Positions 1-3,747 of a stretch of DNA of 64,000 bases are shown here, in pieces. Source of the DNA: Nonomuraea sp. NBC_00507 (lineage in GTDB: Bacteria; Actinomycetota; Actinomycetes; Streptosporangiales; Streptosporangiaceae). The first letter of the stretch is position 1. Each line of letters starts with the position of its first letter. Under the pieces are notes generated by a model. The model worked only from the letters and a program-made list of their open reading frames with translations, was not told where the DNA came from and did no database searches. The translations under genes and the position numbers were made by a program. Location: NCBI RefSeq assembly GCF_036013525.1, contig NZ_CP107853.1, positions 8,928,001-8,992,000 on the forward strand, written 5' to 3'.

Positions 1-903
1 GCAAAGTTCGAATACGAGAGAGCCGACAGCGTGCCGCACGCGATCGAGCTCCTGGCGCGGTACGGTCCCGAGGCCAGGATCGTGGCCGGCGGGCACAGCC
101 TCATCCCGATGATGAAGCTCCGCCTGGCCCAGCCCGAGGCGCTGATCGACATCAACGGCCTGGCCGAGCTGGGGCGAATCGCCGTGGAGGGCGACGAGCT
201 GGCTATCGGCGCACTGGTACGGCACGCAGAGCTGCTCGACAGCACAATCGCAACCGACCTTTTCCCGATATTTCGGGACGCTGAGCAAGTTATTGCCGAC
301 CCGATAGTAAGAAATCGGGGGACCGTAGGGGGCTCATTGTGCCAGGGCGATCCTTCTGAGGATTTGTCGGCCGTCTTCTCGGCCTTAAGGGCGTCAGCGG
401 TCATCCAGGGGCCGGGCGGCACGCGTACGGTGCCGATCCGCGCGTTCCACCGCGGCCCGTACGAGACCGCCGTCGGGGACGGCGAGCTGCTGATCCAGCT
501 GCGCGTGCCGGTCACACCCGGCACCGGCAGCGCGTACGCGAAGGTCGAGCGGCGCGTCGGCGACTGGCCGGTGGCGGCGGCCGGAGCGGTGATCACCGTG
601 CGGGACGGCATGATCGCGCAGGCGGGCATCGGGCTGACCGCGGTCGGCGCCGAGCACTTCTGCGCCCCTGAGGCCGAAGCCTTCCTCCAGGGCGAGGCGC
701 CGGGCGAGGAGGCATTCGCCCAGGCGGCCAGGATCGCGGCCGAGCACTGCGAGCCGCACGCCGACCAGCGCGGCCCCGCCGACTACAAGCGCCACCTGGC
801 CGCCGAGCTGACCAAGCGGGCACTGGCCAGGGCGCAGCTGAATGTCGCCGGGTCCGCGACAGATCCGAATGTCGCCGGGTCCGCGACAGAAAAGAGGATC
901 TGA
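1..903 (+). CDS. coxM: CO dehydrogenase FAD-binding medium subunit (5' end outside window)
   Basis: This subunit carries the FAD that passes electrons from the CO dehydrogenase iron-sulfur clusters to the respiratory chain. The reading frame is already open at base 1, and the visible protein begins AKFEYERADS, just inside the usual CoxM N-terminus, so only a few codons are missing. The FAD-binding signatures AGGHSLIPMMKLRL and RNRGTVGGSLCQGDPSEDL are both present. The gene order M-S-L is the canonical form I cox order. The last 20 or so residues are unusual: the motif NVAGSAT occurs twice, encoded by a tandem 27-bp DNA repeat placed just before the stop codon. coxS starts one base after the stop, so translation is probably coupled. 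The family assignment is secure. Confidence 0.93.
   Translation, partial: AKFEYERADSVPHAIELLARYGPEARIVAGGHSLIPMMKLRLAQPEALIDINGLAELGRIAVEGDELAIGALVRHAELLDSTIATDLFPIFRDAEQVIADPIVRNRGTVGGSLCQGDPSEDLSAVFSALRASAVIQGPGGTRTVPIRAFHRGPYETAVGDGELLIQLRVPVTPGTGSAYAKVERRVGDWPVAAAGAVITVRDGMIAQAGIGLTAVGAEHFCAPEAEAFLQGEAPGEEAFAQAARIAAEHCEPHADQRGPADYKRHLAAELTKRALARAQLNVAGSATDPNVAGSATEKRI
843..888 (+). repeat. Two tandem copies of a palindromic repeat in the 3' end of coxM
   Basis: Copies at 843-861 and 870-888 both read TGTCGC-CGGGTCC-GCGACA, a 6-bp perfect inverted repeat around a 7-base loop, with an exact 27-bp period. Each copy is translated as NVAGSAT. A third, one-base variant lies at the end of coxS. 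I saw no other copy in the window, though I could not search exhaustively. Confidence 0.85.
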
Positions 904-904
904 G

Positions 905-1402
905 ATGCGGATCACGGTGACGGTGAATGGGCAGCCGCACACGAGAGAGGTCGAGCCGAGGCTGCTGCTCGTGCACTTCCTGCGCGACGAGCTGAGCCTG
1001 ACCGGCACCCACTGGGGTTGCGACACCTCCAACTGCGGTGTCTGCACGGTCCAGCTGGACGGCGTGCCGGTCAAGTCGTGCACGGTGCTGGCGGTCATGG
1101 CCGACGGCCACGAGGTGACCACGGTGGAGGGGCTGGAGCGGGACGGCGAGCTGGACGCGGTGCAGAAGGGGTTCGTGGAGTGCCACGGGCTGCAGTGCGG
1201 GTTCTGCACACCGGGCATGCTGCTGACCGCGCGCGCCCTCCTCGACCGCGTGCCCGACCCCGACGAGGGCCAGATCCGCGAGGCCATCTCGGGACAGCTG
1301 TGCCGGTGCACCGGCTACGAGAACATCGTCCGTTCGATCAGGTGGGCGGCTGAAGCGAGTCTGAATGTCGCCGAGTCCGCGACGGAGGCGAAGCAGCAGT
1401 GA
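905..1402 (+). CDS. coxS: CO dehydrogenase iron-sulfur small subunit
   Basis: This 165-residue subunit holds two [2Fe-2S] clusters that relay electrons from the molybdenum-copper site in CoxL to the FAD in CoxM. The plant-ferredoxin-type cluster ligands are C39, C44, C47 and C59; the second cluster uses C98, C101, C133 and C135 (CGFCTPG and CRCTGY motifs). I chose the ATG at 905 because it follows the coxM stop by one base and has AAAGAGGA upstream; an upstream in-frame start would run through the coxM repeat. The C-terminus carries an extra tail, LNVAESATEAKQQ, encoded by a third copy of the coxM palindrome. Its stop overlaps the coxL start. Confidence 0.95.
   Translation: MRITVTVNGQPHTREVEPRLLLVHFLRDELSLTGTHWGCDTSNCGVCTVQLDGVPVKSCTVLAVMADGHEVTTVEGLERDGELDAVQKGFVECHGLQCGFCTPGMLLTARALLDRVPDPDEGQIREAISGQLCRCTGYENIVRSIRWAAEASLNVAESATEAKQQ
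1366..1384 (+). repeat. Third copy of the cox palindromic repeat, at the 3' end of coxS
   Basis: The sequence is TGTCGC-CGAGTCC-GCGACG, differing from the coxM copies in one loop base and at the outermost base, where the pair becomes T-G. It is read in the same phase as in coxM, giving NVAESAT, and again sits shortly before a stop codon. Confidence 0.8.
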
Positions 1403-3747
1403 GCTACGGACCCATGCACCGCAAAGAGGACGCCCGCTTCATCCGGGGGCGCGGCAACTACACCGACGACGTACGGCTCCCTGGCATGCTGTACGGCGCC
1501 GTGCTGCGCAGCCCGCACGCCCACGCGAAGATCGTCTCCATCGACACCAGCGCCGCCGAGGCGCATCCGAAGGTCAAGGCCGTCATCACGGGCCAGACCC
1601 TCGCCGGGCTCGGCCTGGCCTGGATGCCCACGCTGTCGCAGGACACGCAGGCGGTGCTGGCCACGGACAAGGTGCGCTTCCAGGGGCAGGAGGTCGCGTT
1701 CGTGGTGGCCGAGGACGCCTACGCGGCCCGCGACGCGCTGGAGCTGATCGACGTCGAGTACGACCCCCTCGACGCGGTCATCGACGCCAGGAAGGCCCTC
1801 GACCAGGACGCCCCGGTGATCAGGGACGACCTCGAGGGCCGGACGGACAACCACATCTTCGACTGGGAGGCCGGCGACCGGGCCCGCACCGACGCGCTCT
1901 TCGAGCAGGCCGAGGTGAAAGTCGCGCAGGACATGCTCTACCCGCGCGTGCACCCCGCGCCGCTGGAGACCTGCGGCGCGGTCACCGACTTCGACAAGGT
2001 CACCGGCAAGCTCACCGTCTGGTGCCCGACGCAGGCGCCGCACGCGCACCGCACGTTGTACGCGATGGTGGCCGGGCTGCCGGAGCACAAGATCCGGGTG
2101 ATCTCGCCGGACATCGGCGGCGGCTTCGGAGGAAAAGTCGGGATCTATCCCGGGTATGTCTGTGCGATCGTCGGCTCCATCGTCACCGGCCGCCCGGTCA
2201 AGTGGATGGAGGACCGCTCCGAGAACCTCATGAGCACCGCCTTCGCCCGCGACTACCACATGCACGGCGAGATCGCCGCGACCCGCGACGGCAGGATCCA
2301 GGCGATCCGGGTGAAGGTGCTGGCCGACCATGGCGCGTTCAACGGCACCGCGCAGCCGACCAAGTTCCCCGCCGGGTTCTTCCACGTCTTCTCCGGCTCG
2401 TACGACATCGAGGCCGCCCACTGCGAGGTCACCGGCGTCTACACCAACAAGGCCCCCGGCGGCGTGGCCTACGCCTGCTCCTTCCGCGTCACCGAGGCGG
2501 TCTACCTGGTCGAGCGCATGGTCGACGTCCTGGCCGACCAGTTGAGCATGGACCCGGCCGACCTGCGGATGCGCAACCTGCTCAAACCCGAGCAGTTCCC
2601 GTACCACTCCCCCACCGGCTGGGAGTACGACTCCGGCGACTACCCCAAGGCGCTGCGCCTGGCCATGGACATGATCGGCTACGACAAGCTCCGCGCCGAG
2701 CAGGCCGACAAGCGGGCCAGGGGCGAGGTGATGGGCATCGGCGTCAGCTTCTTCACCGAGGCCGTGGGCGCGGGCCCGCGCAAGCACATGGACATCCTGG
2801 GCCTCGGCATGGCCGACGGGGCCGAGCTGCGCGTGCACCCGACGGGCAAGGCCGTGCTGCGGGTGTCGTGCCAGTCGCAGGGCCAGGGCCATGAGACGAC
2901 GTTCGCGCAGATCGTCGGGCAGGAGCTGGGCATCCCGGCCGACGATGTGGAGGTCGTGCACGGCGACACCGACCAGACGCCGTTCGGCCTCGGCACGTAC
3001 GGATCCCGCTCCACCCCGGTCTCCGGCGCGGCCACCGCGATCGTAGCCAGGAAGGTGCGCGACCGGGCCAAGATCGTGGCGGCGGCCATGCTGGAGGCCG
3101 CGCCGGACGACCTGGAGTGGGCCGACGGCAAGTGGTCGATCGTCGGCGACCCGTCCGCCGGCAAGTCGATGGCCGAGATCGCGCTGGCCGCGCACTCGAA
3201 CCTGGAGCTGCCCGAGGGGGTGGAGGGCCATCTGGACGCGGTGACCGTCTACAACCCGCCGAACCTGACGTATCCGTTCGGGGCGTACATCTGCGTCGTG
3301 GACCTCGATCCCGGGACGGGGCAGGTGAAGGTGCGCAGGTTCGTGGCGGTGGACGATTGCGGGGTGCGGATCAACCCCATGATCGTCGAGGGGCAGATCC
3401 ACGGCGGGCTGGCCGACGGGGTCGGGATGGCGCTCATGCAGGTGATGGCGTTCGACGAGGACGGCAACCACCTGGGGGCGTCGTTCATGGACTACCTGCT
3501 GCCGACCTCGATGGAGTGCCCGTCGTGGGAGCTGGGCGAGACCGTGACGCCGTCGCCGACGCACCCGATCGGGGCCAAGGGCGTGGGCGAGTCGGCCACG
3601 GTGGGCTCCCCCGCGGCCGTGGTCAACGCCGTGGTGGACGCGCTGGGGCCGTACGGGGTGCGGCACGCGGACATGCCGCTCACTCCGGCGAATGTGTGGC
3701 GCGTCATCAACGGCGACCCGTTCCGCACGGACCTGGCCATCCCATGA
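1399..3747 (+). CDS. coxL: Form I aerobic CO dehydrogenase large (Mo-Cu) subunit
   Basis: This is the catalytic subunit that oxidises CO with water to CO2 at a Mo-Cu site with molybdopterin cytosine dinucleotide. The 782-residue protein has the form I active-site loop AYACSFR at residues 357-363, so C360 is the predicted copper-ligating cysteine; form II enzymes and other xanthine-oxidase relatives have AYxGAGR instead. Cofactor motifs GGGFGGK and GAKGVGES, the latter with the catalytic Glu, are intact. The GTG start at 1399 overlaps the coxS stop (GTGA). The next gene overlaps its end by ATGA, so M-S-L-F behave as one transcript. Form I identity, and so probable scavenging of atmospheric or soil CO, follows from the loop motif and gene order. 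Confidence 0.95.
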   Translation: MSYGPMHRKEDARFIRGRGNYTDDVRLPGMLYGAVLRSPHAHAKIVSIDTSAAEAHPKVKAVITGQTLAGLGLAWMPTLSQDTQAVLATDKVRFQGQEVAFVVAEDAYAARDALELIDVEYDPLDAVIDARKALDQDAPVIRDDLEGRTDNHIFDWEAGDRARTDALFEQAEVKVAQDMLYPRVHPAPLETCGAVTDFDKVTGKLTVWCPTQAPHAHRTLYAMVAGLPEHKIRVISPDIGGGFGGKVGIYPGYVCAIVGSIVTGRPVKWMEDRSENLMSTAFARDYHMHGEIAATRDGRIQAIRVKVLADHGAFNGTAQPTKFPAGFFHVFSGSYDIEAAHCEVTGVYTNKAPGGVAYACSFRVTEAVYLVERMVDVLADQLSMDPADLRMRNLLKPEQFPYHSPTGWEYDSGDYPKALRLAMDMIGYDKLRAEQADKRARGEVMGIGVSFFTEAVGAGPRKHMDILGLGMADGAELRVHPTGKAVLRVSCQSQGQGHETTFAQIVGQELGIPADDVEVVHGDTDQTPFGLGTYGSRSTPVSGAATAIVARKVRDRAKIVAAAMLEAAPDDLEWADGKWSIVGDPSAGKSMAEIALAAHSNLELPEGVEGHLDAVTVYNPPNLTYPFGAYICVVDLDPGTGQVKVRRFVAVDDCGVRINPMIVEGQIHGGLADGVGMALMQVMAFDEDGNHLGASFMDYLLPTSMECPSWELGETVTPSPTHPIGAKGVGESATVGSPAAVVNAVVDALGPYGVRHADMPLTPANVWRVINGDPFRTDLAIP

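Follow-up and report, generated by a model that had tools for sequence, protein, structure and literature searches.

The DNA repeat that lies at the ends of the coxM and coxS genes of Nonomuraea sp. NBC_00507 is inserted DNA, and it is found in many unrelated genes and in both orientations. We consider it probable that the repeat is a non-autonomous, partly palindromic mobile element of Nonomuraea, 27 bp in length, each copy of which adds nine codons to a gene that receives it. The C-terminal tails of the CoxM and CoxS proteins are likely to be by-products of three copies of this element rather than a feature of CO dehydrogenase.

The stretch of DNA that we analysed (the window, 64,000 nucleotides in length) contains three copies of TGTCGC-N7-GCGAC(A/G) on the plus strand, at positions 843-861, 870-888 and 1366-1384, ahead of the stop codons of coxM and coxS. 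As a first-pass annotation of the window had reported, all three are read in the frame of the gene that contains them, as NVAGSAT, NVAGSAT and NVAESAT, and the first two are spaced 27 bp apart. The repeating unit comprises about 10 variable bases followed by a 17-bp core, GTCGCCGRGTCCGCGAC. The coxM gene (1..903, plus strand, TGA at 901-903, 5' end outside the window; Pfam FAD_binding_5 and CO_deh_flav_C), which encodes the FAD subunit of CO dehydrogenase, carries one unit at 834..860, made up of 10 variable bases and a core at 844-860, and a second at 861..887, with a tandem copy of the core at 871-887. Both units are on the plus strand and both cores read GTCGCCGGGTCCGCGAC, so that CoxM ends NVAGSAT-DP-NVAGSAT-EKRI. 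The gene for the 2Fe-2S subunit, coxS (905..1402, plus strand, TGA at 1400-1402; Pfam Fer2 and Fer2_2), ends SLNVAESATEAKQQ and carries one unit, on the plus strand at 1357..1383, whose core GTCGCCGAGTCCGCGAC occupies 1367-1383. The reading frame that overlaps the coxS stop codon (1399..3747, plus strand) encodes the large subunit and is one that we take to be coxL; its product contains AYACSFR, presumably the mark of form I CO dehydrogenase. A 19-base pattern made from the repeat gave five strand-matches in the window, compared to a shuffle mean of 0.15, and 0 of 100 shuffles reached five. (Note that the five strand-matches represent three places, two of which are perfect palindromes that are each counted on both strands.)

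Filled and empty sites in related genomes

Our comparison of the coxM–coxS region covered 29 loci, each from a different one of the 54 Nonomuraea genomes. Of the 29 orthologous junctions, 25 are without the coxM tail, and the coxS genes of 24 of the 29 loci have other tails. Thus, for the loci in this comparison, the proposal that such tails are not normal for either subunit is correct, and CoxM and CoxS orthologues that lack the repeat lack the tail sequence too. The segment at the junction is 9-22 bases long in 25 of the 29 loci versus 64 bases in the NBC_00507 genome (G000), and filled coxM junctions measure 40 bases in G046 (one unit), 63 in G043 (two units) and 91 in G050 (three units). 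At coxS, an intact core is present in four of the 29 loci (G000, G046, G037 and G013, the last with six units) and a decayed one in G050; the coxS gene of G037 is 27 bp longer than that of G049 at the same place. In G043 the two units at the coxM–coxS junction (L133) have a spacing of 26 bp. Judged from the sequence, this puts coxM into a frame with a TGA in the array itself, such that the CoxM protein of this genome should end early, within the array. Two other loci (L145 in G027 and L156 in G008) have unrelated repetitive tails at the same C-terminus of CoxS, which argues that this terminus tolerates changes of length in general.

Empty counterparts exist for other sites as well. The glyoxalase-like gene of G046, a genome of the same species as NBC_00507 in which the 120-bp flanks of the site are 99% identical, is shorter by a net 27 bases, and the gene is likewise 27 bases shorter in five further relatives; approximately four bases at the junction also differ. 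(Note that at five loci, L318, L320, L323, L324 and L325, the glyoxalase gene start is longer and has apparent repeated start-codon stretches at the place of the element.) For GH38C, 23 of 28 rows of the comparison are empty and five are filled, and for zwf seven rows are empty and four are 27 bases longer, two of these four being the same place; the genes for DapA, for the OppC permease and for a small zinc-ribbon protein exist in both empty and filled forms. (The counts for these five genes are of rows, not genomes, and some genomes appear twice, with two loci standing for one place in L056/L161, L028/L190, L123/L191, L027/L192, L059/L199 and L216/L257.) Many zinc-ribbon and DapA orthologues retain an insert of about 27 bases whose letters have drifted, and these inserts are plausibly decayed copies. 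Decayed or absent copies in relatives could in part reflect vertical inheritance with loss and not repeated insertion.

The two genomes of one species, G000 and G046, differ in copy number at five of seven sites: coxM (2 and 1 copies, respectively), glyoxalase (1 and 0), DapA (0 and 1), GH38C (0 and 3) and zwf (0 and 1, the G046 copy having one mismatch in its core). They have equal numbers at coxS (1 and 1) and in the thiamine-diphosphate enzyme gene (2 and 2). The existence of filled and empty sites within one species makes both the movement of the element and its possible shaping of proteins testable in bacteria that can be cultivated.

Structure of the arrays and spread of the element

Arrays of the element contain from one to six units, mostly in 27-bp steps; the exceptions are 26-bp steps in L026 and L133 and a single 24-bp step in L128. 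The 10-base spacer is a repeat of the left flank of the array in L022, L029, L047, L054, L055 and L057 and of the right flank in L059, and the spacers of the coxM, L030, L032 and L035 arrays do not repeat the left flank. Because the spacer repeats a flank in several arrays, we infer that arrays may grow by replication slippage or unequal exchange. Undecayed net inserts measure 27 bases or multiples thereof, except for those of 24 (OppC, G021), 33 (DapA, G053) and 30 (coxM, G046) bases. Of the features of a MITE, inverted arms are present, and among the junctions compared by eye there was no constant target-site duplication; what the junctions share is a few letters (GAC or GCGAC, and up to six letters in zwf). 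Both orientations of the element occur at nearly one place in OppC (L028 sense, L034 antisense) and in GH38C (L049 and L057 sense, L223 antisense).

Fourteen insertion sites of the genus could be projected onto the NBC_00507 chromosome, where they form six pairs within 10 kb compared to 0.15 expected (0 of 20000 trials); without OppC and coxS, the remaining 12 sites form two pairs compared to 0.10 expected (reached in 81 of 20000 trials). (This analysis left out three sites with weak or uncertain matches in this genome, S8, RibD and ABC, and three genes with no clear match there, the helicase, Rieske and L341 genes.) Such clustering suggests either copying over short distances or gene neighbourhoods that are permissive. 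Two short intervals of the chromosome each hold three of the genus insertion sites: C1:4357469-4360525 (DapA, the OppC-OppD linker and OppC) and C1:8921830-8929384 (zwf, coxM and coxS).

We entertained the idea that the repeat spreads mainly through short-range copying during replication or repair, for instance by template switching primed by GCGAC-like ends, such that no transposase is needed. Consistent with this idea, in addition to the clustering, GCGAC is present at most of the empty zwf and zinc-ribbon sites, and the left flank of the core resembles the right arm GCGAC, with C at -11 (90%), G at -10 (76%) and A at -9 (46%) across 30 places, although these places include orthologues and are thus not independent. 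(T and C at -6 and -5 are also prominent in these flanks, and T at -1 and, in part, A at -2 were built in by the search patterns.) However, distant sites exist too, much of the weight in the clustering comes from the coxM/coxS and OppC/OppDF pairs, and the clusters could be groups of genes that are permissive or co-inherited. On balance we regard copying of this kind as a real possibility, albeit not the likely one.

With a mobile element, the reading that we prefer, dispersal to new sites would need some activity supplied in trans and would favour sites nearby. No helper gene for the element was found. Members of the Y1 transposase family (PF01797) are present in 34 of the 54 genus genomes and in 11 of the 14 carriers of the element, and their distribution does not follow that of the carriers. 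Dependence on a Y1 or RAYT transposase was rejected, as carriers G024, G034 and G037 (two of the three being drafts) have no PF01797 member; the presence of a Y1 gene alone would not prove its use.

Reading phase, encoded peptide and RNA folding

Consistent with the frame bias that had been anticipated, 16 of the 20 gene sites to which a phase could be assigned are in one phase (binomial P = 2.5e-5 at an expectation of 1/3, or approximately 0.001 if one sense phase is counted as closed by TGA). In this phase, phase 0, GTC is a codon on either strand. The 16 sites are coxM, coxS, the thiamine-diphosphate enzyme, the zinc-ribbon protein, OppC and GH38C (each in both orientations), a CBM9 protein, RibD, a second thiamine-diphosphate enzyme (which we take to be IolD-like), an ABC ATPase, DapA, the OppC-OppD linker, an S8 protease, GH38N, an IucA/IucC siderophore synthetase (L340/L342) and a C39-peptidase-like protein (L341). 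Three sites are in phase 1 (glyoxalase, zwf and a Rieske oxygenase) and one is in phase 2 (an MrfA-like helicase). Note that the automatic frame score fails at gene ends, where frames were chosen by hand from open reading frames, Pfam domains and orthologues, such that the count involves some subjectivity. It leaves out orthologues of sites already counted, the non-coding or gene-edge loci L026, L042 and L298, L029 (gene unsure), the single two-mismatch sites L282, L287, L301, L302, L303, L308 and L309, and L310 and L343, whose frames were unsure and for which Pfam later supported phase 0 (ApbE and Mur ligase, respectively); inclusion of the last two would give 18 of 22. The L310 locus (G045) has, in the N-terminal part of its ApbE-family gene, a strongly drifted array of four repeats of about nine residues each, which is probably an old copy of the element.

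The expectation that copies would lie at the 3' ends of genes was not borne out. Among the 20 sites, only those in coxM and coxS are C-terminal; five are N-terminal (glyoxalase, DapA, the IolD-like enzyme, ABC and RibD), L341 is perhaps a sixth, and the rest are internal. (Of the loci outside the 20, L042 has its copy upstream of a ThiS-family gene, and the L026 array begins at a stop codon.) Thus, of the earlier suggestion of a mobile repeat placed at gene ends, the dispersed small palindromic element inserted in genes stands and the placement does not.

In phase 0 the peptide encoded by the element is VA(E/G)SAT or, from the opposite strand, VAD(S/P)AT, and as these peptides are nearly alike the orientation of a copy hardly matters. 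Given that 27 is a multiple of three and that the peptide read in the favoured phase is small and soft, insertions would survive where such a peptide is tolerated, at termini and in loops. The same properties, namely the same harmless peptide from either strand and nine codons that keep the frame, would allow a minimal, coding-compatible mobile element to spread through genes and not between them, by local copying from its own GCGAC ends and with no transposase. We hold this version of the mobile element to be rather unlikely.

The phase bias, together with the ability of the palindrome to encode almost the same peptide on both strands and the location of several copies at termini or between domains (the siderophore synthetase insert, for example, lies between the IucA_IucC and FhuF Pfam domains), might instead indicate that selection acts on the VA(E/G/D)(S/P)AT peptide, which recombination would spread as a linker or tag module and which would be retained for its role in the proteins. 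Against this, four gene sites are in other phases, L042 is non-coding and L026 lies at a stop codon, most of the orthologues compared are without the peptide, and the plausibly decayed zinc-ribbon copies keep their length and lose the peptide. Moreover, third codon positions are no richer in mismatches than the others. In a count that covered 85 stretches within five mismatches of the core in ten phase-0 genes, in which only fixed letters were scored and each was assigned to its codon position in the gene, the mismatches relative to fixed letters at positions 1, 2 and 3 were 29/491, 29/444 and 18/425, respectively; for the 46 stretches that are distinct within a gene they were 26/264, 26/242 and 15/230. 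There is thus no third-position excess in these counts, in which the stretches were selected by similarity to the core, a selection that limits the test, and copies decay with no sign that the peptide is protected. We consider selection for the peptide to be decidedly unlikely.

Less probable still, and in our view very improbable, is that the repeat is a regulatory or DNA-binding palindrome (an operator, a terminator or an mRNA hairpin) selected at these places. The arms, perfect over five base pairs, and the tandem spacing would suit such a role, and the coxM pair folds below shuffled sequences (z of -2.34, with 3 of 200 shuffles as good), mainly by pairing of one copy with the other. However, the coxS copy folds as shuffles do (z of 0.07), so that the RNA hairpin that had been proposed receives little support, most of the sites inspected lie inside coding sequence, at ends and in the middle and in either orientation, and there are only six copies in 12.9 Mb. 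The copies do not fit an intrinsic terminator either: the support from folding is weak, and no T run follows the copies in the window.

Distribution of the element and comparison with known repeats

The 12.9-Mb genome of NBC_00507 contains six copies that match a 21-mer with no more than two mismatches, and two more matches at three mismatches, compared to four matches in the reversed control of this search. Those outside the window are at C1:9133150, at the start of the glyoxalase-like gene, and at C1:10177470-10177517, where two copies in 27-bp tandem lie in the interior of the thiamine-diphosphate enzyme gene. A scan with an exact pattern detected copies in 13 of 54 Nonomuraea genomes, and control matches in none. 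With a second pattern applied to the whole family, 14 of 54 Nonomuraea genomes were positive versus 1 of 287 from other genera, and there were two control matches among all 341 family genomes. A search for two palindromes 27 bp apart, with any loop and one mismatch, picked out 37 of the 341 genomes (15 of Nonomuraea and 22 others) versus three control genomes. The one of the 22 that was inspected, G195, has an exact array with the element core: two cores 27 bp apart (L339, 1529-1573 in the minus-strand view) lie inside a calcineurin-like phosphoesterase gene in a different phase. Matches with two mismatches numbered 163 compared to 18 in the control; they include chance matches, and part of them were inspected.

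In a collection with one genome per species (84,980 species), a 19-mer gave 33 exact stretches, of which 21 have Nonomuraea in their titles and none is from Rickettsia. The remaining 12 stretches each come from a different record and are single matches, several in the favoured phase; 11 non-Nonomuraea stretches, each with one copy and with their frames inspected, look like chance. (A match in a Nocardia MAG, L119, was rejected as a copy of the element, as it lies in a different, 17-bp tandem repeat.) The element is therefore found almost, though perhaps not quite, exclusively in the genus Nonomuraea. Chance matches outside the genus also favour phase 0, whose codons are frequent where GC content is high; frequent codons do not explain the sites proved to be insertions. 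That the repeat as a whole is a chance run of favoured codons (GTC GCC GAG TCC GCG AC) in a GC-rich genome is scarcely credible, notwithstanding these single non-genus matches and a native DVAESAT segment in one conserved Nonomuraea protein, in view of the exact 27-bp arrays, the empty sites, the restriction to the genus and the lack of control matches in 54 genomes, and for sites with empty orthologues it is already refuted. The native segment, ...L(A)(D/E)VAESATE..., is encoded by nearly the same DNA as the element at five loci (L262, L297, L299, L304 and L306, which were dropped from the counts for this reason). The protein has stop-to-stop frames of 521-536 codons, in L297 with a CDP-alcohol phosphatidyltransferase domain, and its segment could be either a chance match or a source of the element.

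Palindromic elements of Rickettsia and Wolbachia, as described in the cited passages, are in-frame inserts that are tolerated in unrelated conserved protein genes with insert-free orthologues (PMC2229807, PMC3767692, PMC10969869), and in Rickettsia such elements (RPEs) measure approximately 100-150 bp (PMC3767692, PMC2229807) in genomes such as that of R. japonica, with a GC content of 32.4% (PMC3767692). The Nonomuraea element resembles those described there in that it too lies in frame in protein genes whose orthologues lack the insert, and differs from them in that its unit is 27 bp, GC-rich, actinobacterial and often tandem. The RPEs are the nearest working model for it, by likeness of behaviour. 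In the same cited passages in-frame palindromic insertions have been discussed above all for Rickettsia and Wolbachia, and annotators should be aware that tails and loops of the present type are insertions.

The passage of PMC3733652 on GTAG and CGTC REPs describes short stem-loops, some inside open reading frames and some at their ends, and gives the CGTC REPs stems of 8-9 bp, loops of 4-5 bases and no dedicated transposase. As a short stem-loop that is found inside open reading frames or at their ends and has no dedicated transposase, our element is similar to the CGTC REPs of that passage, whereas its arms of 5-6 bp and loop of 7 bases fall outside their stem definition, and it lies mostly inside genes and not downstream of them. 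The tags of these REPs are terminal and unpaired (GTAG, CGTC, TGTC or CCTC). The core of the element does start with TGTC at its left end, one of the variants allowed for CGTC in that account, although these letters form part of the paired arm; there is no constant GTAG tag in the 30 element flanks, and the phyla named in the passage do not include actinobacteria. In view of the size of its unit we do not class the element with the RPEs, nor, in view of its stem, with the CGTC REPs. PARCELs, in the part of PMC2996958 that describes them, are translated tandem palindromic repeats of 25 residues in open reading frames without assigned function; the element shares with these the tandem, palindromic and translated repeats, and differs in having nine residues and in residing in known enzymes.

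Our literature search, which covered few subscription journals, returned no description of the element or of an actinobacterial counterpart. The best explanation of the comparisons is a very small element that would work like the RPEs and that may be active, or have been so until recently, in the large genomes of free-living actinomycetes. Mycobacterial interspersed repetitive units are actinobacterial repeats of tens of base pairs that are tandem, intergenic, near gene junctions in operons and partly translated. They differ from the present element in being longer and intergenic, whereas the Nonomuraea copies inspected are mostly internal to genes.
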